NCBI RefSeq assembly: GCF_016743215.1
Contig: NZ_VRZC01000005.1
Coordinates: 1 to 58,046, forward strand
From: Geminocystis sp. GBBB08
GTDB taxonomy: Bacteria; Cyanobacteriota; Cyanobacteriia; Cyanobacteriales; Cyanobacteriaceae
DNA: 58,046 bases
Direction: 5' to 3'
Positions 2,494 to 20,129 of the stretch are shown here, in pieces. Each line of letters starts with the position of its first letter. Positions within the stretch are counted from its first letter, which is position 1. The notes under the pieces are model-generated. The model saw only the letters and a list, made by a program, of their open reading frames with translations, ran no database searches and was not told the origin of the DNA. Both the position numbers and the translations under genes were made by a program.

Positions 2494-3348
2494 ATGCAAA
2501 TTAAAGGTACAACTAAATTATTAGGTATTATTGGTGATCCCATCGAACACTCTAAGTCACCATTAATACAAAATGCCGCCATCGAAGCCTTAAAATTGGA
2601 TTATGTATATATTCCTTTTCTTGTCAAAAAAGAAGACTTAGAAACAGTTTTAAAAGGGTTTCAGGCAATAAATTTAGTAGGTTTTAATGTTACTATTCCT
2701 CACAAAGAAAATATCATCCCTTTCTTGACAAATGTCTCAAAATATGCTAAAAAAATAGGTGCGGTTAATACTGTATGGTTAACTAAAAATGGTTGGCAGG
2801 GTACAAATACCGATATAGATGGTTTTATCGCTCCTCTCAAAGAATTAAATCGAGATTGGCATAATATATTACCTCTTGTAATCGGTGCCGGTGGTGCTAG
2901 TCGTGCCGTCATTGTAGGTTTAGAGCAATTAGGCTGTGAGGAAATTAGAGTAGTAGGGAGAAATTTCCAGAAATTAAATGCCTTTAAGGATAGTTTTCTG
3001 TATAGTTGTCTTAATTGCCGAATTTCAGTTTATGGTTGGCATCAAATTGGTGATTTAATTCCCCATAGTGATTTAATTGTTAATACTACGCCCCTCGGAA
3101 TGTATCCAAATATTGACATTTCACCCTTGACAAAAGAACAAAATAGCCTTGTCAAACCAAACGTGATCGCCTATGATTTAATCTATACTCCTCGCCCTAC
3201 TTTATTTTTACAGGAAGTTCAAAAACAGGGAGGAATTATTATTGATGGTAGTGAAATGTTAGTGCAACAAGGTGCTAAGGCTTTTGAAATTTGGACGGGG
3301 AAAAAACCTTCCATTGAGATTATGAGTAAGGCTTTGTTATTCAGTTAA
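2494..3348 (+). CDS. aroE: Shikimate dehydrogenase
   Basis: AroE reduces 3-dehydroshikimate to shikimate with NADPH in the pathway to chorismate and aromatic amino acids. The 284-residue protein has the substrate-binding SKSP motif (near 20-23), the catalytic lysine in NVTIPHKE (K71), the NTD motif with the second catalytic residue (D107), the NADP-binding loop GAGGASRA (131-138) and the C-terminal GSEMLVQQGA helix. It appears to be a single-gene unit facing the minus-strand acyltransferase. Confidence 0.97.
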   Translation: MQIKGTTKLLGIIGDPIEHSKSPLIQNAAIEALKLDYVYIPFLVKKEDLETVLKGFQAINLVGFNVTIPHKENIIPFLTNVSKYAKKIGAVNTVWLTKNGWQGTNTDIDGFIAPLKELNRDWHNILPLVIGAGGASRAVIVGLEQLGCEEIRVVGRNFQKLNAFKDSFLYSCLNCRISVYGWHQIGDLIPHSDLIVNTTPLGMYPNIDISPLTKEQNSLVKPNVIAYDLIYTPRPTLFLQEVQKQGGIIIDGSEMLVQQGAKAFEIWTGKKPSIEIMSKALLFS

Positions 3349-3400
3349 AGTGACATATTCCATAGATTTTCATTTTAATGATAGAGTCAGAAAAACTATC

Positions 3401-3457
3401 TTAAGTACTGAGGTAAAATTAATTGTATATAGGCAATGAGTTTAAACCCATTGTTAT
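3401..3457 (+). repeat. Dispersed ~57-nt repeat containing palindrome (copy 2)
   Basis: This stretch matches 29577-29633 with only a few differences. Shared blocks are TTAAGTACT, AAAATTAATTGTATATA and the palindrome CAATGAGTTTAAACCCATTG (3434-3453). Both copies have the same orientation and lie between genes. There is no coding potential, so a MITE-like or REP-like element is possible. Confidence 0.7.
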
Positions 3458-3540
3458 TATGGATTTGAGAAAAGTAAAGGGCATCGATTAATTTTGCTTA
3501 CTGAATGAATTATCTGATTATGGTATTGTTTAAAAAACTA

Positions 3541-4239
3541 TTATGAAATACAAATATTTTTCAGAGATGTAGTCAAACTAGCAGTTAAAGCAATACTATC
3601 TTTTCGACTGGATTTTCCTTTATAATCTTTGACGATTAAACATTCCCCAATATTAACTGTCACACTACAGCCACGACTTGGCACCGGTTCACTATACTTA
3701 ATACTTATAGGTAAAATCTTTATGTCTATTTCTGGTTTTTCTTCCGCTACATCTAAGGCAATTTTGGCAATGCCTCTTTTTAAAGGTTGAACTTCGTCTG
3801 TCCGACAAATGTTTCCTTCGGGAAAAATAACCACCATTTTTTCTTGACATAATAAATCAAAACTATGACGTAAACTATCTAAACCAGGTTTATCGGTGTT
3901 AACGGGAAATCCTCCCAATCTTTTCACAATCCACCCTTGAAGCCCCTTCATTTCGTTGGCAGATACCATAAAATGAGGATTTCTAGCACTGACTAATTGA
4001 CCTGTCGCATAAGGAACTATTAACGCATCCCAACGAGAGCGATGGGTAGGTGCAATAATTACGGCTCCATTTTTCGGTACATTTTCTTTCCCCGTGATGA
4101 TAATTTTCTTGAAGAAAAAAGGAAAAATCAATTTAGTGGCTAAAACATAAGCTATTTTGATTAACCAAGGAGAAATATGAGAAGTAATAGTTGTTTCATG
4201 ATGACTGAGATTCGGTTGAATGTCTGATGTGTTAGTCAT
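3541..4239 (-). CDS. plsC: 1-acyl-sn-glycerol-3-phosphate acyltransferase (PlsC family)
   Basis: This enzyme likely transfers an acyl chain to lysophosphatidic acid to make phosphatidic acid, the precursor of membrane and thylakoid lipids. The 232-residue protein has the acyltransferase HX4D motif (HRSRWD, 66-71) and the FPEG motif (139-142). A hydrophobic segment at about 26-45 should anchor it to the membrane. It converges on aroE and diverges from the CruA-like gene across 171 bases. Other acyl acceptors are possible in this broad family. Confidence 0.88.
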   Translation of the reverse strand: MTNTSDIQPNLSHHETTITSHISPWLIKIAYVLATKLIFPFFFKKIIITGKENVPKNGAVIIAPTHRSRWDALIVPYATGQLVSARNPHFMVSANEMKGLQGWIVKRLGGFPVNTDKPGLDSLRHSFDLLCQEKMVVIFPEGNICRTDEVQPLKRGIAKIALDVAEEKPEIDIKILPISIKYSEPVPSRGCSVTVNIGECLIVKDYKGKSSRKDSIALTASLTTSLKNICIS

Positions 4240-11258: not shown

Positions 11259-12203
11259 TTAATTTCTTTTCTTTCGAGAAGATGATTTTGGTATATAATT
11301 TTGATTTCGAGATTTTCCGTCATCTAGTTTGAGGAAACTCATTAACAGATTTAAACCTTTAAAACCTAATTTTTTGCTTAAACGAGTAACCCCTGTTACT
11401 ACCTCTCCTTCTTTGGGTGTTAAAAGTTTTTCTTCTAATAATTCCTTTAATTTTGTACTGGTTAAAGGACGATTTAAAAGACCTTTTTCTCCTAAAGAAA
11501 TAGAACCTGTTTCTTCAGAAACTACTATACAAATACAATTTTCAACTATTTCGGTAACGCCCATAGCCGCACGGTGACGAGTGCCTAACTGTCTTGAAGC
11601 ATTCCGATCAGACAATGGTAAAATAACCCCAGCGGAGACGATTTCTGAGCCTCGAATAAACACTGCACCATCATGAAGTAAAGTTTTTGTTTGAAAAATT
11701 GTTTGTAATAATTCTCTGCTAATTTCAGCGTTAAGTTTTACTCCTGGATTAAGAAAAATTCTCTCTTCTATAGTGTTAAAAGTCTCAATAATCATTAAAG
11801 CACCCGTACGATTTTGAGACAATTCTTTAACGGCATCAACTATTTCATCAATGACACTATTTTCTTTAGGCAAAGAATAATTAGACTCAAAAAAGAGGTT
11901 AATTTGTCCTTTACCTAGTTGCTCTAAAAAACGCCTAAAATCAGACTGAAAAACTACCGCCATTGAAAGAGAACAGATTAAGATTAATCTTTCTAAAAAA
12001 AAGCTAAATAAAGTTAAATTGAATACTCGATCGCTAATGAAAAGGATCATAATTAAAATTAATAATCCTCTAATCATCCATTGAGCACGACGCTCTTTAA
12101 TTAGTATAGTAAGAAAGTAAAAAGAGAAAAAAACTAATCCTAAATCAAGAATTTGTCGCAACATTACATATATATTGTCAGGAAAACCCGACGAAAACAT
12201 CAA
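11259..12203 (-). CDS. cdaA: Diadenylate cyclase CdaA
   Basis: CdaA condenses two ATP into cyclic di-AMP, a second messenger linked to potassium and osmotic homeostasis. The 314-residue protein has about three N-terminal transmembrane segments (about 12-85), then the DisA_N catalytic domain with DGA (178-180) and RHR (209-211), both intact. The C-terminal 60 residues are basic (ends SSSRKKRN). It lies behind lysA on the same strand, an arrangement I recall from other cyanobacteria, but 196 bases of tandem repeats separate them. Confidence 0.95.
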   Translation of the reverse strand: MMFSSGFPDNIYVMLRQILDLGLVFFSFYFLTILIKERRAQWMIRGLLILIMILFISDRVFNLTLFSFFLERLILICSLSMAVVFQSDFRRFLEQLGKGQINLFFESNYSLPKENSVIDEIVDAVKELSQNRTGALMIIETFNTIEERIFLNPGVKLNAEISRELLQTIFQTKTLLHDGAVFIRGSEIVSAGVILPLSDRNASRQLGTRHRAAMGVTEIVENCICIVVSEETGSISLGEKGLLNRPLTSTKLKELLEEKLLTPKEGEVVTGVTRLSKKLGFKGLNLLMSFLKLDDGKSRNQNYIPKSSSRKKRN

Positions 12204-12417: not shown

Positions 12418-13809
12418 TCGACTAGGTAATAAGTCTTGTTTCACCAAATCATCGTAAGTTTCACGACGAATAATTAAATTAGCTTCTCCTTCATTAACTA
12501 AAATAGCCGCTGGTCTTCCGATACGATTATAATTGGATGCCATACTATAGTTATATGCACCTGTGGCTAAAACCACTAAAGTATCTCCGGGTTGAGTATC
12601 AGGAATTTCAATATTTTTAATCAAAATATCCCCAGATTCACAATGTTTACCCGCAATAGTTACTATTTCGGTGTTTTCACTACACATTTTATTGGCAATT
12701 ACTACCTGATAAAGAGATTGATAAGTTATAGGGCGAGGATTATCAGCCATTCCACCATCTACGGAAATATAAGTTCTGACATGAGGAATTACTTTTCTAC
12801 CTCCAACAGTATAAGCAGTAATACAGGCAGTTGCAACCATTGATCGCCCTGGTTCAGCAATTAATTTAGGTAAGGCCAAATTTCTTTCTTCACAGGCTTT
12901 AGTTACGGCTTGAGCTACGGTTTTAACCCAATCTGTAATACTTGGAGGATCATCAGATTCGGTGTAACGAATGCCTAAACCGCCACCAACATTTAATTCT
13001 GTGAGGGGTAAACCATAATCAATAGCTTTTTTAAACCAATCTGCTAACACACCGGCTAAATCGTTATGAGGTTGTAATTCAAAAATTTGTGAGCCGATAT
13101 GAGCGTGTAAGCCATTACGGTTCAAAAATTGTTTTTCTTTGACGAAGGTGAAAACTGCTTCTAGTTGATTAGCGTCAAAACCGAATTTACTGTCAATGCT
13201 TCCTGTGCGAATATAGTCATGGGTATGACATTCAATGCCGGGGGTTAAACGAATTAAAATATTGACAGATTTTTGTTTTTCGGCGGTTAATCGGGCTAAA
13301 GTTTCCAATTCTAACCAATTATCAACTATTATTTTACATTTGCTATCGATCGCTAATTCTAATTCACTGACAGATTTATTATTACCGTGAAGATAGATTT
13401 TATTGCTAATTTCTTCGGTAGTAAAACCGCTAATTTCTAAGGCTTTTGTTGTGGTGTAAAGCTCTCCTCCTGACACTACGTCAAAACCGATGCCTTCACT
13501 GGCTAAAATACTGGCGATCGCCATACAACTCCATGCTTTAGATGCGTAAATAACTTGAGATTCTCCGGCATAAAATTCCTGAAAAGCATCACGATATTGA
13601 CTTGCAGAAGTGCGCAAAGTTTGTTCATCAAGTATATACAAAGGTGAGCCAAATTTAGTGACTAATTCAGTGACATCACAACCACCGATAACAAGATGAT
13701 TTTTGTCATTGATAGTGGCAGTTATGGGTAATAATCCTTGATTAGGGGAAGAATGAGAGTTTGAAGATACGATAAATTTTTCTGCTGTGGATTTTTCCGT
13801 TAATAACAT
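12400..13809 (-). CDS. lysA: Diaminopimelate decarboxylase
   Basis: LysA decarboxylates meso-diaminopimelate to lysine, the last step of the pathway. The 469-residue fold-III PLP enzyme has the PLP lysine in VIYASKAWSC (K91), the glycine-rich loop GGGLGIRY, the EPGRS phosphate-binding motif and the CESGD active-site motif. The first 40 residues are a variable leader. The C-terminus runs into the heptamer array, so its last five residues are repeat-derived. It is probably the first gene of a unit with cdaA. Confidence 0.97.
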   Translation of the reverse strand: MLLTEKSTAEKFIVSSNSHSSPNQGLLPITATINDKNHLVIGGCDVTELVTKFGSPLYILDEQTLRTSASQYRDAFQEFYAGESQVIYASKAWSCMAIASILASEGIGFDVVSGGELYTTTKALEISGFTTEEISNKIYLHGNNKSVSELELAIDSKCKIIVDNWLELETLARLTAEKQKSVNILIRLTPGIECHTHDYIRTGSIDSKFGFDANQLEAVFTFVKEKQFLNRNGLHAHIGSQIFELQPHNDLAGVLADWFKKAIDYGLPLTELNVGGGLGIRYTESDDPPSITDWVKTVAQAVTKACEERNLALPKLIAEPGRSMVATACITAYTVGGRKVIPHVRTYISVDGGMADNPRPITYQSLYQVVIANKMCSENTEIVTIAGKHCESGDILIKNIEIPDTQPGDTLVVLATGAYNYSMASNYNRIGRPAAILVNEGEANLIIRRETYDDLVKQDLLPSRLVISN

Positions 13810-15716: not shown

Positions 15717-15887
15717 TTATTCTCTAATTAACTCGATAAATAATTGTTTTAATTCGTTAGATTCTTCCTCTGATACTGTGGCAATATTTAACATTTTTGG
15801 CAATAATTCTAATCTTGCATGAAAATGAGATTCGATTTGAGGATAAGAATGAAAATTGTTATAAACAGGTAAATCCGCTTGAGGAAG
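15717..15887 (-). pseudogene. In-frame continuation of the NYN-Hsp70 gene after a TAA stop
   Basis: Directly after the TAA at 15888-15890 the same frame stays open for 56 codons and ends in TAA at 15717-15719. The translation begins LPQADLPVYNNFHSYPQ and ends in an acidic helix-like stretch (SEEESNELKQLFIELIRE). Its composition and codon use look like real protein, and it would join smoothly to the preceding IYKQIE. A single C-to-T change (CAA Gln to TAA) would explain it. Sequencing error, recent nonsense mutation, or programmed read-through are the options. Confidence 0.6.
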
Positions 15888-18872
15888 TTACTCGATTTGT
15901 TTATAAATAGGAGGACTAAATTCATTACCTAAAACGTGCCATCCTAAACATTGAAATACACAACCGAGAATTGTTAGGGCGACTTGCGGTTCTTTCGTTG
16001 TACGATAAAGTTGCTCTAAGACAAAACTGGTAATACTGGTTACTTGTTTAAAATCAATTCTATACTCTTCTGGTTGTCCAGCACTAATTAAACGTCCTAA
16101 TGCCCACGCTGCTTTTTCTTTTTGTGATAGATGACGACTTGTTTTAATGACTCCACGCAAAAAAGTAAGATTATTAGAGTTACATTGTCCACATTTACCA
16201 AGAGAATTGAGAAATACTAATGCTCGAGGTTCATTTTGAAAAGCTTTGAAGGCTTCAATTAATTTTAAGTCAAAACCATTCCATAATAGTTTACCCGGTA
16301 AATTGACGATGGCATCATATTGTCGATTATCTATTTTTGATAAGTCCTGATTTATCTTCATTTGTACCCATTGTTCAAATTTTATTTCTGAACTTTTGAT
16401 ATTCATGGATTCATTAGGATTAAGAGAAGCGAAAATTTCTCCTAAAGATAATACGGCAATATAAGTTTTGATTTGGTTATGGGAAGTGCTAAAAAAGCTA
16501 TCTATTTCTAACCAGCGAATTAAATCATCAATTATTTGACTACGATTAGAGGCGATCGCCGTTTGTTTAACTAAATTTCGACGACGCTCATGTAATCTAG
16601 CATTAGCAAAATTTTTGTCTAATTGAAAAACAACATCTTCCCAATCTTTAAATTTAACCACAATTTTGGGATCTGCTGGTTTTCCATTGCGACTACGAGA
16701 AATATGAGGAATTAAACTTGTTGGATCTATCGAATTAGCGACAGAAGTATTTTTTGCAGTGGTGCTTTTTTTCGTATTTGTATTGATTTGATTGCTCTCA
16801 GAAGCAACCTCTACTTTAAATCTTACTTGTTTATTGCGTTGAGAAACCCAAGTTAATAAGAGTCTCTCATCAAAAGTATATTCAATTTCGAGATCTAAAA
16901 GATCTCCTGATTTAAGATTCGAGGCAAAAAGATTTTTGAGCATCACTTGACGAGATCTCTGAAGAGTTGTGTTAATATTCGGTTGAGTACCCATTCCCAC
17001 CCAAATATTAAACTGCACATAACCTTCTCGATCATTTGGCAGTTTAAAACCATCTCGGACAGTTTTGTAAGGATATTTTTGACCTTGAGCTATTAATAAA
17101 TCTAACTTAGTTTCGCCATTTTTGATAGTTTCCAGATAAATATTAGTAGGATTAACTCTTTCTACAGATTTTAACGCTCCCGCAGCGAATAAACTAGCAC
17201 CTTTAGCTACGGCTAAATCAGGATTACCGTCAAGAATGGGAATATTACCAAAAAGTTTTTGTAATCTTTCTTTAATAGGGGGAAAATAAGTCATCCCACC
17301 ATTAAGTAAAATAGCATCTACTTCAGGTATTTTGCCTAAAGTTGCCTTAGCTTTTAATAAAACATCTAAAATAGGCACAACAAAAGTATCAAATCGATCA
17401 ACAAAAGGAGTTTGATCAAATGCTTTGGACGGATTCATGTCCGCTAACATTTCTAAATTAAGATCTCGACATAATAACTTATCTAAAATAAGACGCATTT
17501 TTTCTGCACTTATATAATGTCTAATAGGTAAAAAACTATCAAGAAAACTACCTTGAAAAGCCTGTTTAAAGTTTTCTTTATCACCTGAAGAAGTATATTC
17601 AGCCCCCCATAATCTTTTAAATTTTTCGGCATAAATTAATAATTCATAACTTAATTTATCTCGATCAGCTACAGATAAATCAGCTTTATTTAAACCGTTT
17701 TCCACAATATAATTAGCGATTAATTGATCAACTTTATCACCACCAATACGGGTACGAGAACCGATGGCAATATCATTAATTACAAAATTATTATTTTGAG
17801 AATCCCACACTACTTGATGAAGAGTAACATCTAACGTACCACCGCCTAAATCATAAACCATGATATTTGAGGGAGAATTAGCATCAAAAGCCGGAGGAAT
17901 ATCACCTCGTTGCATGGAATAAAGAAAATCATATAACGCTCCTTGAGGTTCAGACAATAAAACTACATTTTCTTCTTGCCAACCTGCCAAAACTGCCGCT
18001 TTTCTCGTAGCTTCAATGGCATCAGATTCATAAGAAGCAGGATGAGTAATGACTACTCCTTGTACATCACCATATTTATCTAGTAATTGTTGACGACAAA
18101 AACCTAAAACTATAGAAGCCGCTTTTTCTGGTAAAATTTCTCCTGAAGTTAACGGATACTGAAAAGGTTTACCATTATTAGAATCACCCATATTATGCTT
18201 CCATGCTAAAATAGTCTGATCACGAAAAGCATAAGCATTACTTTTAATATGCCCCCCCACTTCTGCATTTTCAAGAGAATTAAACCTCACGGAAGAAGGA
18301 ATAATCGGCTTTTTGACTAAACTACCATTTTCGTCTTTAATTGACACATCTAACACAGACGCATTCCATTCCTTTCTAAAGGTATTAAAATTAGCTAGAG
18401 ACATAACAGTATTTGTTGTGCCTAAATCAATACCTACATAAGTAGGTTGCATTACTTCTTTGAGAATTTCCACATAAGTAGCAGATTCCCTTGATTTATT
18501 ACCGATTTGATTACCAATAACTAAGGTTTTAATTTTTTTAGATTTAAATTGTTCAAATAAAGTAGCATAACCATTATCATTACTAACAATTACTATTAAA
18601 TTAATGTTTAATTTACTATTATTAATTAACTCATTTGCTGTTTGAAAAATTAATTTATCAACCTCTTGCTTTACAGGATTTAATCCAGGAGTTAACTCAA
18701 AACGATAATCAAATTTACGAAAACCACTACCATAAGCAGTTAAAACGGAAGGAGTATTAGAAAAACCACGACGATAAACAATTTGCCCATAGGAAGCACA
18801 AATTTTTTCAATAGTATCTAACTTAGGTTTAATGTTATCTAAATCTAGTAAAATAGCAATTCTATTAGTCAT
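15888..18872 (-). CDS. NYN-domain/Hsp70 fusion protein
   Basis: The 994-residue protein joins two domains. Residues 1-140 form a NYN (PIN-like nuclease) domain: LLDLDN with D10, D12 and N13, D72 in KQEVDK, and IVSNDNGY with D99. Two further acidic positions common in the family look replaced (Q77, G101), so nuclease activity is uncertain. Residues 145-570 are an Hsp70 ATPase: GIDLGTTNTV (147-156), VITHPASY, DLGGGT (341-346) and LNGGMT (523-528). The rest holds a beta-rich substrate-binding-like part and a helical C-terminal region with CGQC. An AGGAGAT ribosome binding site lies 6 bases before the ATG. It follows a GrpE-like gene by 42 bases. I infer a dedicated chaperone with an RNA-linked domain. 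Confidence 0.85.
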   Translation of the reverse strand: MTNRIAILLDLDNIKPKLDTIEKICASYGQIVYRRGFSNTPSVLTAYGSGFRKFDYRFELTPGLNPVKQEVDKLIFQTANELINNSKLNINLIVIVSNDNGYATLFEQFKSKKIKTLVIGNQIGNKSRESATYVEILKEVMQPTYVGIDLGTTNTVMSLANFNTFRKEWNASVLDVSIKDENGSLVKKPIIPSSVRFNSLENAEVGGHIKSNAYAFRDQTILAWKHNMGDSNNGKPFQYPLTSGEILPEKAASIVLGFCRQQLLDKYGDVQGVVITHPASYESDAIEATRKAAVLAGWQEENVVLLSEPQGALYDFLYSMQRGDIPPAFDANSPSNIMVYDLGGGTLDVTLHQVVWDSQNNNFVINDIAIGSRTRIGGDKVDQLIANYIVENGLNKADLSVADRDKLSYELLIYAEKFKRLWGAEYTSSGDKENFKQAFQGSFLDSFLPIRHYISAEKMRLILDKLLCRDLNLEMLADMNPSKAFDQTPFVDRFDTFVVPILDVLLKAKATLGKIPEVDAILLNGGMTYFPPIKERLQKLFGNIPILDGNPDLAVAKGASLFAAGALKSVERVNPTNIYLETIKNGETKLDLLIAQGQKYPYKTVRDGFKLPNDREGYVQFNIWVGMGTQPNINTTLQRSRQVMLKNLFASNLKSGDLLDLEIEYTFDERLLLTWVSQRNKQVRFKVEVASESNQINTNTKKSTTAKNTSVANSIDPTSLIPHISRSRNGKPADPKIVVKFKDWEDVVFQLDKNFANARLHERRRNLVKQTAIASNRSQIIDDLIRWLEIDSFFSTSHNQIKTYIAVLSLGEIFASLNPNESMNIKSSEIKFEQWVQMKINQDLSKIDNRQYDAIVNLPGKLLWNGFDLKLIEAFKAFQNEPRALVFLNSLGKCGQCNSNNLTFLRGVIKTSRHLSQKEKAAWALGRLISAGQPEEYRIDFKQVTSITSFVLEQLYRTTKEPQVALTILGCVFQCLGWHVLGNEFSPPIYKQIE

Positions 18873-18914: not shown

Positions 18915-20129
18915 TTAATTAAATTCTTTTACTTCTTCAACTTTTGCCGGAGTTACGATGGCAGAATTAACACACCATCCCGGAGCAATACATTTAACAG
19001 TTTTTTTCTCTTCTTTATTGGTAAATTGAGAACCCGAAATATAGTTATATTTATGTTCATCTAAATCTTGCCCCGTAACTTCAAAAATTTGATTAATATT
19101 GTCAGGAAATAGAGTAATATTAATACTTTTAAAAGCTTTAAATAAAGCCTCAAGATTAATAAAACAAGTTAAAGTTTCTTGAGGTGATAAATTTTCATTA
19201 TTTTCTAGTAAAATATCAAGACGTTTATAAAGATGAAAAAGTTGATCTAATACGGGTTGTTGTTCACCTTGTAAAGATTGTGCTAACTGGAAAACAGCAT
19301 TAGTAAATGATTCGGTTTTAATCGCTTCAATTTGATTTTTTAACTCTTCATTTTTTAATTCAAGACGTTCAATTTCACTTTTTAAATTACTTTCAGTTTC
19401 TCCTAATTCTTGCACTAAATTTTGAGCGGCTCTATCTTTTATGGCAGTACGAGTTAAATGAAATTCTTTTTGTAATTCATAGCCAAATTTACCTAAAAAT
19501 TCACTCGCTCCAAATTTCAGTATTTCTTGATAAGCAGAAGAAGAATTAAAGAATATTTCGATATTATTATCTAAATATTTTGGTAATTGGGATAAAAACC
19601 AAAAAGTTCGTTCTCCAGATCTATTAAAATAGTCAATAATATCTACTAATTGTTCTAATTTAACTAGATCAGGTTGTTTATTTTGAGAAAGAGCAAGTTC
19701 AAATAAATGAACAAAATCTGTCATTCTTTTCTGCCAATTTTCTAAAAATAATGCTGGTTCTTCTGTATAATTTCGAGACAAATAACGACAAAGATTATTC
19801 GCTATTTTTTGTACTTCTGGTTCTGATAAATTTAATTTATATATTAACTGTTTCCAGTTTGTGTAATGATCAGTAATTAAAAGTAATATGCACTGCTCTT
19901 GGATTGAAGTATTTTCTTTTTGTTCTTGTCTTTTATCATAATTATGAGGAATAAATTTAGAGTAATTATTATTGATAAATAAAATAAAATTTTTCCAAGA
20001 TGAATCAACTAACTTATCATCTAATAAAGATATTTTGTTCTTATTTACAATAGGCTTTGATTTATGAGATTTTGGTCTTTCAAAAGCTTTAGAAGGTTTG
20101 TTATTTTCCCGTGATGAATTGTGCATCAT
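18915..20129 (-). CDS. Divergent GrpE-like nucleotide exchange factor
   Basis: The 404-residue protein has a basic, disordered N-terminus (1-50), a helical region (60-220), a strong coiled coil around 235-275 (NLKSEIERLELKNEELKNQI), and a C-terminal part that resembles the GrpE beta domain. In the last 70 residues, FEVTGQDLDEHKY corresponds to the GrpE FDPxxHEA region and TVKCIAPGWCVNSAIVTPAKV to VxxVLQPGYKLGDRVLRPAxV. GrpE proteins release ADP from Hsp70; being directly upstream of an Hsp70 fusion supports this. It is about twice the size of housekeeping GrpE, so the N-terminal half may have another role. The call rests on the C-terminal pattern and the context. Confidence 0.7.
   Translation of the reverse strand: MMHNSSRENNKPSKAFERPKSHKSKPIVNKNKISLLDDKLVDSSWKNFILFINNNYSKFIPHNYDKRQEQKENTSIQEQCILLLITDHYTNWKQLIYKLNLSEPEVQKIANNLCRYLSRNYTEEPALFLENWQKRMTDFVHLFELALSQNKQPDLVKLEQLVDIIDYFNRSGERTFWFLSQLPKYLDNNIEIFFNSSSAYQEILKFGASEFLGKFGYELQKEFHLTRTAIKDRAAQNLVQELGETESNLKSEIERLELKNEELKNQIEAIKTESFTNAVFQLAQSLQGEQQPVLDQLFHLYKRLDILLENNENLSPQETLTCFINLEALFKAFKSINITLFPDNINQIFEVTGQDLDEHKYNYISGSQFTNKEEKKTVKCIAPGWCVNSAIVTPAKVEEVKEFN

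Follow-up and report, generated by a model that had tools for sequence, protein, structure and literature searches.

A conserved cyanobacterial NYN-Hsp70 fusion and its GrpE-like partner: a candidate chaperone-gated ribonuclease cassette

The window analyzed here, the whole 58,046-nucleotide stretch of contig NZ_VRZC01000005.1 from Geminocystis sp. GBBB08, carries on its minus strand a gene whose product joins an N-terminal NYN domain to an Hsp70-type ATPase, with a GrpE-like gene immediately upstream. The fusion gene was accompanied by the GrpE-like gene at every cyanobacterial locus compared, and its Hsp70 part grouped with Hsp70s that are encoded beside beta-CASP-type ribonucleases (RNases) in other lineages. 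We give about an even chance to the reading that this two-gene cassette is an Hsp70/GrpE-gated RNase switch for defense or stress arrest. Conserved cassettes that combine an RNase-type domain with Hsp70 and GrpE were undescribed in the literature searched, and the proposed mechanism is plausible on sequence grounds.

RESULTS

Structure and conservation of the fusion gene

The fusion gene is a single open reading frame (ORF) running on the minus strand from 18872 down to 15888 and encoding one protein of 994 amino acids (aa), in which the NYN domain, the Hsp70 ATPase, a middle domain, and a helical tail follow one another. Its ATG is preceded by an AAGGAG ribosome-binding site. The features of the two genes are listed below, each with its basis; pLDDT is the predicted local distance difference test score.

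15888..18872, minus strand: NYN-Hsp70 fusion gene, 994 aa as read (ORF and homologues)
18477..18863, minus strand: NYN domain, residues 4-132 (Pfam PF01936)
18843-18845, minus strand: D10 codon (codon positions from sequence)
18657-18659, minus strand: D72 codon (codon positions from sequence)
18576..18578, minus strand: codon of D99, an invariant NYN acidic residue (alignment and codon positions from sequence)
18570-18572, minus strand: G101 codon (codon positions from sequence)
17172..18437, minus strand: Hsp70-type ATPase (actin-fold nucleotide-binding domain), residues about 146-567 (Pfam HSP70, 92.6 bits; ATP-site landmarks)
16773..17171, minus strand: middle domain, residues about 568-700, perhaps a substrate-binding beta domain in degenerate form (similarity to beta-CASP-linked Hsp70s)
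15891..16715, minus strand: C-terminal helical region, residues about 720-994 (low-confidence model, pLDDT 46)
15888..15890, minus strand: in-frame TAA ending the gene 56 codons short of the relatives' end (sequence and alignment)
15717..15887, minus strand: frame past the stop, 56 codons resembling the relatives' C-terminus and then a stop (alignment with relatives)
18915..20129, minus strand: GrpE-like gene, 404 aa, 42 bp upstream of the fusion gene (Pfam GrpE; 17 of 17 loci)
18936..19415, minus strand: GrpE domain, residues 239-398 of the upstream protein (Pfam PF01025)

The fusion protein was searched against whole genomes in three overlapping samples. Homologues were present in 6 of 39 other close relatives; in the phylum-level sample they occurred in 9 of 386 genomes, and in the order-level sample in 17 of 388, representing 12 of 149 genera. 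The last two counts include the source genome, and each of these two surveys scored a genome at its two best candidate sites. The frame was uninterrupted from the NYN start to near the query end in 15 of the 17 genomes, the source genome included. In the 14 others, the homologues spanned query residues 1-5 to 984-994 without an internal stop and were 49 to 74% identical to the window protein. The first-pass annotation of this DNA had described an NYN domain fused to an Hsp70 ATPase in one polypeptide, and these full-length homologues bear it out; they also rule out a frameshift or misassembly as the origin of the join.

Among 11 copies, the NYN domain was conserved to the same degree as the ATPase (mean pairwise identity, 66% and 64%, compared with 57% for the middle domain and 48% for the C-terminal part), and the ratio of nonsynonymous to synonymous substitution rates was below 1 in all 16 domain-by-pair comparisons (0.02 to 0.65). 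In two genomes of one genus, G506 (L104/L108) and G468 (L107/L109), the fusion copy was broken, rearranged, or partly copied elsewhere on the contig, which suggests recent decay, rearrangement, or assembly trouble.

The 14 full-length relatives comprise 1041 to 1062 aa, compared with 994 aa in the window, and the window copy is judged to be shortened because the 56 codons after its stop resemble the relatives' C-termini. The early TAA is either a real shortening or a misread base. The lower limit of 15717 given in the first-pass annotation, which named no strand, needed correction, being the end of the frame read through the in-frame TAA at 15888-15890; the gene ends at 15888.

The fusion gene had a G+C content of 0.327 and the GrpE-like gene one of 0.268, compared with a mean of 0.337 and a standard deviation of 0.033 for window ORFs of at least 150 aa; a strongly foreign base composition of the two genes was unsupported. 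The CIRCE heat-shock element had no match within the window, with up to three mismatches allowed.

The NYN domain and its acidic core

The NYN profile was matched by all 14 aligned N-termini, the window copy included (best E value, 4.7e-10), in an alignment from which L013 and the damaged G468 and G506 copies are excluded. The window match spans profile positions 1-139 of 145. Scanned alone, the window N-terminus scored 24.0 bits as a 150-aa segment and 24.2 bits as a 145-aa segment (E, 5.4e-5), which places it at the Pfam cutoff of 24.2; as all 14 aligned N-termini match, the borderline score is attributed to divergence and not to chance. The profile check of the N-terminus that had been suggested for the domain call thus came out in its favor.

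The residues D10, D12, N13, D72, D99, Q77, and G101 were all found at the positions reported earlier. Among them, D10, D12, N13, D72, and D99 were invariant in all 14 aligned copies and form an acidic core, the residues of which we take to be catalytic or metal binding. NYN RNases include LabA-type proteins (Pfam PF01936), which resemble the fusion in the NYN profile match and the acidic core and differ from it in lacking the join to Hsp70. The loss of two acidic positions, previously proposed to indicate RNA binding, did not prove to be a family trait: position 101 was D in 10 of the 14 copies and G in 4 (the window copy, L017, L102, and L103), and position 77 was acidic in none, which rules out a "loss of Q77" as a family feature.

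A single-sequence structure model of the NYN region reached a pLDDT of 46.5, and the best Foldseek match to this model was a designed fold (E, 0.047). Searches of the PDB found no sequence relative of the region.

The Hsp70 ATPase, middle domain, and tail

Pfam PF00012 matched the window fusion over residues 146-422 and a second stretch. In an alignment with Escherichia coli DnaK, the equivalents of D8, T11, K70, E171, D194, T199, D201, and G341 were retained in 13 of 13 NYN-Hsp70s; these eight ATP-site residues, together with the profile score of 92.6 bits, uphold the earlier description of an Hsp70 ATPase with phosphate and adenosine motifs. The 13 NYN rows leave out L013 and L020 (near L012 and L019) and the damaged G468 and G506 copies, and the comparison includes four beta-CASP-linked Hsp70s, with G791 and G756 left out. 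By DnaK numbering, R71 is replaced by H, T173 by Q or K, and R167 by V in all 13 NYN-Hsp70s, and the DLLLD interdomain linker is gone from all of them. Three of the four beta-CASP-linked Hsp70s keep R167, and none has the linker. In DnaK, R167 contacts the J-domain; this role and that of the linker are taken from PMC8215388.

The middle domain is common to the NYN-Hsp70s and the beta-CASP-linked Hsp70s (E, 4e-6 to 1e-3 in a six-sequence set), and one beta-CASP-linked Hsp70 matches PF00012 over residues 2-518 of 599. A profile comparison of the middle domain did not detect a DnaK-type substrate-binding domain; the region is possibly a degenerate substrate-binding beta domain. The C-terminal region was mostly helical in a low-confidence single-sequence model, and a profile search of the PDB returned weak solenoid matches (best E, 0.07). 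The clamping of hydrophobic segments, cited in the first-pass annotation as the known action of Hsp70s, was not shown for this one: the linker and the J-protein contact are gone, and no DnaK-type substrate-binding domain was found by profile. From the ATP-site residues kept, the loss of R167 and the linker, and the lack of a detected substrate-binding domain, we infer that the module may cycle ATP without a classical J-protein and with a GrpE-type exchange factor.

A GrpE-like gene at every fusion locus

Loci were compared over 12 to 20 kb around 16 further copies and over 23 kb of the window, with ORFs clustered at an E value of 1e-8 and at coverage of half of the query. The fusion and the GrpE-like gene were the only clusters present at 17 of 17 loci. 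The next most common cluster, ABC-transporter-type ATPases as judged by eye, occurred at 6 of the 17, and the remaining clusters largely reflected synteny inside one genus; G000 and G004, both of the window genus, had no common neighbors between their two copies. The gap between the fusion and the GrpE-like gene was 2 to 278 bp at the 16 loci read, one of which had a shortened GrpE-like ORF.

The window GrpE-like protein matched Pfam GrpE in its C-terminal part with 26.5 bits (cutoff, 25.8), and the profile was matched at an E value of at most 0.01 by 8 of 11 aligned GrpE-like copies, the window copy among them (best, 1.2e-8). Two more GrpEs occur in the source genome, one of them near a DnaK and the other at a different site; the cassette gene is therefore an extra one and is probably dedicated to the fusion. 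Among plasmids, the window GrpE-like protein had no match.

At L103 (G497), the GrpE-like ORF has 616 aa, compared with about 400 elsewhere, and its N-terminal part seems to be present twice. The source genome, G000, has another Hsp70 cluster: contig C15 (L143) carries Hsp70 genes with TPR- and band-7-type neighbors, as judged by eye, and on contig C161 (L144) a partial Hsp70 gene precedes a second GrpE gene; these two contig ends may belong together.

Sister cassettes with beta-CASP RNases

The best plasmid match to the fusion was an Hsp70 of Priestia megaterium, the neighbors of which are a beta-CASP/RMMBL RNase, a 476-aa GrpE-like protein, and a HEAT-repeat protein. The 476-aa protein had a weak match (E, 6e-5 in five sequences) to the profile of the cyanobacterial GrpE-like proteins. 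A search with it found a Klebsiella grimontii plasmid with the same gene order, in which the cassette adjoins an integrase gene. Both plasmids are mobilizable. In Bacillota, the G994 and G850 loci were found with the GrpE-like profile (2 of 348 genomes) and the G791 and G756 loci with the fusion protein (2 of 159 genomes). All six of the nearest non-cyanobacterial Hsp70s found, from four lineages, adjoin a beta-CASP-type RNase, and these loci had been found via Hsp70 or GrpE-like similarity, not via the RNase. Four of the six cassettes lie on plasmids or beside arrays of clustered regularly interspaced short palindromic repeats (CRISPR), which adjoin the cassettes of G994 (on both sides) and G850.

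Beta-Casp scored above the Pfam cutoff in the RNases of both plasmids; the G994 RNase had RMMBL and lactamase matches, with Beta-Casp under the cutoff, and the RNases of the four chromosomal loci had blastp matches to the Priestia RNase. The HxHxDH motif, presumably with the role that it has in beta-CASP RNases generally, was kept in all six together with further histidines and aspartates. The GrpE-like proteins of the cyanobacterial and sister groups matched each other in hhalign (E, 7e-6; probability, 84), and a GrpE wing was present in four of the six sister proteins. The HEAT-type protein had Pfam support in both plasmids and blastp support in G791 and G756; a 552-aa protein of G994 had no Pfam match and a weak blastp link. 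Homology of the cyanobacterial C-terminal region to the sister HEAT-type proteins was unsupported (profile probability, 1).

Several further observations concern these loci. The K. grimontii Hsp70 is annotated as two overlapping ORFs (L127:10454-12237), and this copy may be broken. At L131 (G994), CRISPR arrays with the same repeat, at 2548-4160 and 12913-13540, flank the cassette, and a Cas_TM1802 gene lies nearby, an arrangement that looks like insertion of the cassette into a CRISPR locus. Beside the G850 cassette (L132:12250-19500), genes for a PP2C phosphatase, an FHA protein, an AAA-ATPase, and a Ser/Thr kinase lie on one strand and are possibly a second signaling or conflict system.

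Searches beyond these groups gave the following results. The Priestia/Klebsiella GrpE-like profile had no match in 349 Pseudomonadota genomes, and the fusion protein, at an E value of 1e-22, had none in 158 Bacteroidota or in 158 Pseudomonadota; these negatives were obtained without positive controls and carry little weight. The Klebsiella GrpE-like gene had no near match in E. coli genomes. Among 80 loci listed for the common Hsp70 motif, matches began at query residue 119 or later, and no NYN fusion was present. Phage records gave 19 matches to the fusion, every one confined to the Hsp70 part; for the Priestia GrpE-like protein they gave none. Neither of these two proteins had a relative in viral scans.

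Phylogeny of the Hsp70s

A 35-row maximum-likelihood tree separated the NYN- and beta-CASP-linked Hsp70s from DnaK, HscA, HscC, and others with a bootstrap value of 97 and an SH-like approximate likelihood ratio test (SH-aLRT) value of 95, and a quick 43-row tree gave the same grouping (SH-aLRT, 94). The reference Hsp70 rows were 19 of the 80 listed loci and three Hsp70s of the source genome. The 35-row tree leaves out the long rows YegD, L004, and L027 and, for speed, NYN_L014, NYN_L018, NYN_L106, L025, L035, L072, and L100; relative to the 43-row tree, it adds L146 and L147. The limits of the clade are unsure, since L022, a long-branched, more distant seventh Hsp70, fell inside the clade in the 43-row tree and outside it in the 35-row tree. 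TPR-like repeats apparently form the end of the 812-aa L022 Hsp70, which, as judged by eye, adjoins GTPase-like and helicase-like ORFs.

Elsewhere in the window, an ORF resembling a CdaA-type diadenylate cyclase (cyclic di-AMP synthase) was noted by eye at 11259-12203 on the minus strand.

DISCUSSION

A possible Hsp70/GrpE-gated RNase switch

Hsp70s are known as folding machines. In the cassette described here, the Hsp70 motor is fused to an RNase-type domain, with a GrpE-like gene alongside, and its ATP cycle may therefore act as a switch for RNA cleavage. The Hsp70 module would cycle ATP without a classical J-protein, and the GrpE-like protein would be its dedicated nucleotide-exchange factor. 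A trigger, such as an aberrant or foreign protein or ribonucleoprotein, would be bound by the middle and helical parts and would hold the Hsp70 in one nucleotide state; that state would expose or activate the attached NYN domain, RNA would be cut, and GrpE-driven exchange would reset the machine. The most likely use would be defense against phages or mobile elements, or else a halt to translation in an emergency. The related Hsp70s of Bacillota and of the enterobacterial plasmid would work in the same way through a separate beta-CASP RNase instead of NYN. RNA cleavage by the NYN domain, its control by the Hsp70 state, the GrpE-like reset, and the aberrant or foreign protein as trigger are all predictions from sequence.

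The first-pass annotation had proposed that the Hsp70 cycle is coupled to RNA cleavage, and in view of the GrpE-like gene and the beta-CASP-linked clade this coupling stands as the best reading; the roles in stress, in defense, or on stalled transcripts that were attached to it are still conjectural. A conflict role with phages or mobile elements is favored by the patchy distribution, the changing neighbors, the plasmids, the integrase gene, and the CRISPR arrays. A stress or quality-control role is also possible in light of the lack of a common third gene, the metabolic neighbors of the G791 and G756 cassettes, and the weak, partial PADLOC matches.

A number of results weigh against a gated RNase with a defense or stress function. 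On the RNase side, NYN domains can be RNA binders, the window NYN domain scored 19.6 bits (E, 0.0014) in a whole-protein Pfam scan and so fell under the cutoff, and the window copy has G at position 101 and a shortened C-terminus. On the GrpE side, 3 of the 11 aligned GrpE-like copies missed an E value of 0.01, and the GrpE wing is absent in G791 and G756. The tree programs warned, in both trees, of long branches meeting and of unlike letter composition, and no RNase-like ORF was noticed by eye alongside L022. The sister HEAT-type proteins had no profile match to the cyanobacterial tail. Clustering found no third gene common to the 17 cyanobacterial loci, and the G791 and G756 cassettes lie, as judged by eye, among metabolic genes. 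In PADLOC, the fusion had one weak, partial match, to the candidate system PDC-M61B (E, 6e-5), and the GrpE-like protein had none; of the six sister loci, three were covered with ten proteins, which gave partial matches or none.

Alternative explanations

The strongest of the alternatives, which we consider unlikely while leaving it some real weight, is housekeeping quality control of RNA and protein, in which the Hsp70 would bind nascent or misfolded chains at ribosomes, the NYN domain would clip the mRNA of stalled or damaged complexes, and no defense role would exist. The same anatomy would serve such a function, neither a defense gene nor any other third gene is common to the 17 loci, and many Hsp70s are reported to be ribosome associated (PMC11090510). 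Against a housekeeping system weigh the very patchy distribution, the lack of common neighbors between the G000 and G004 copies, and the relatives on mobilizable plasmids. We rate as somewhat less probable still an anchoring role, in which the NYN domain, a poor catalyst, would bind RNA and recruit an Hsp70 machine to RNA or ribosomes. The glycine at position 101 in 4 of the 14 copies, the nonacidic position 77 in all 14, and the window score at or under the Pfam cutoff would fit an anchor, but the invariance of D10, D12, N13, D72, and D99 speaks against it, as does the retention of HxHxDH in all six sister RNases, which argues for cleavage.

A comparably small share goes to a built-in antitoxin or folding guard, in which the Hsp70 part and the GrpE-like protein would silence a toxic RNase until unfolded proteins titrate the chaperone away. 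The covalent link and the paired GrpE-like gene fit such a guard, and a related idea, that MNT-HEPN modules are unmasked by misfolding, has been published (PMC3710099); the present results do not separate a guard from an ATP-gated switch. The last alternative, an artifact in which a frameshift, a misassembly, or chance similarity joins two genes, could draw on the borderline Pfam score of the window NYN copy, but the uninterrupted homologues in 14 other genomes and the NYN matches in all 14 aligned copies leave it next to no probability.

Comparison with known systems

Searches of the open-access literature, the extent of our coverage, found no description of an NYN-Hsp70 fusion among the papers listed, nothing on beta-CASP, Hsp70, and GrpE together, and nothing on phage defense combined with an Hsp70-like protein. 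Several systems share parts of the cassette. The DnaK-DnaJ-GrpE machine likewise pairs an Hsp70 ATPase with a GrpE-domain partner; unlike it, the cassette has no J-protein gene among the genes common to the 17 loci, has lost R167 and the DLLLD linker, carries an extra NYN domain, and has no DnaK-type substrate-binding domain detected by profile. The sister beta-CASP cassettes are alike in their Hsp70 clade, GrpE-like partner, and RNase, and differ in having a separate beta-CASP-type RNase and a separate HEAT-type protein and in being seen in Bacillota and on one enterobacterial plasmid.

Among systems from the literature, the predicted RNA-targeting CoCoNuT type III systems contain CnuD/CnuCD proteins, in which an Hsp70-like ATPase is combined with a HEAT-like helical part, and HEPN RNases (PMC11090510); they thus resemble the cassette in placing an Hsp70-like module and a helical part alongside an RNase-type domain. 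In the CoCoNuT systems, the gene for the Hsp70 part is fused to or adjoins genes for McrB/McrC-type proteins, the RNase is of the HEPN type, and the authors predict very poor ATP hydrolysis (PMC11090510). In the cassette, by contrast, the NYN domain is fused directly, the ATP-site residues are intact, and a GrpE-like gene is paired, a comparison in which CnuD is known by description and not by sequence comparison. A further difference is that clustering found no third gene common to the 17 loci, although no search was aimed at McrB/McrC. The predicted GTPase-centered GAP1-N2 conflict systems include HSP70 and GrpE genes (PMC7159879), unlike the 17 loci, where no third gene, GTPase or other, is common. 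Sacsin, a chaperone with a HEPN domain, offers a eukaryotic parallel (PMC3710099).

Implications

An Hsp70 ATPase with its own GrpE-like reset and no J-protein may directly gate an RNase, the NYN domain in cis in cyanobacteria and a beta-CASP enzyme in trans in Bacillota and on plasmids, in a new class of bacterial systems sensing invader proteins or ribonucleoproteins and answering by RNA cleavage. We put forward this broader proposal tentatively and rate it somewhat below even. If it is true, bacteria would read the folding state or phage proteins via an Hsp70 and would respond at the level of RNA. The sister cassettes, in which the RNase differs, suggest a constant Hsp70/GrpE core with an exchangeable nuclease.

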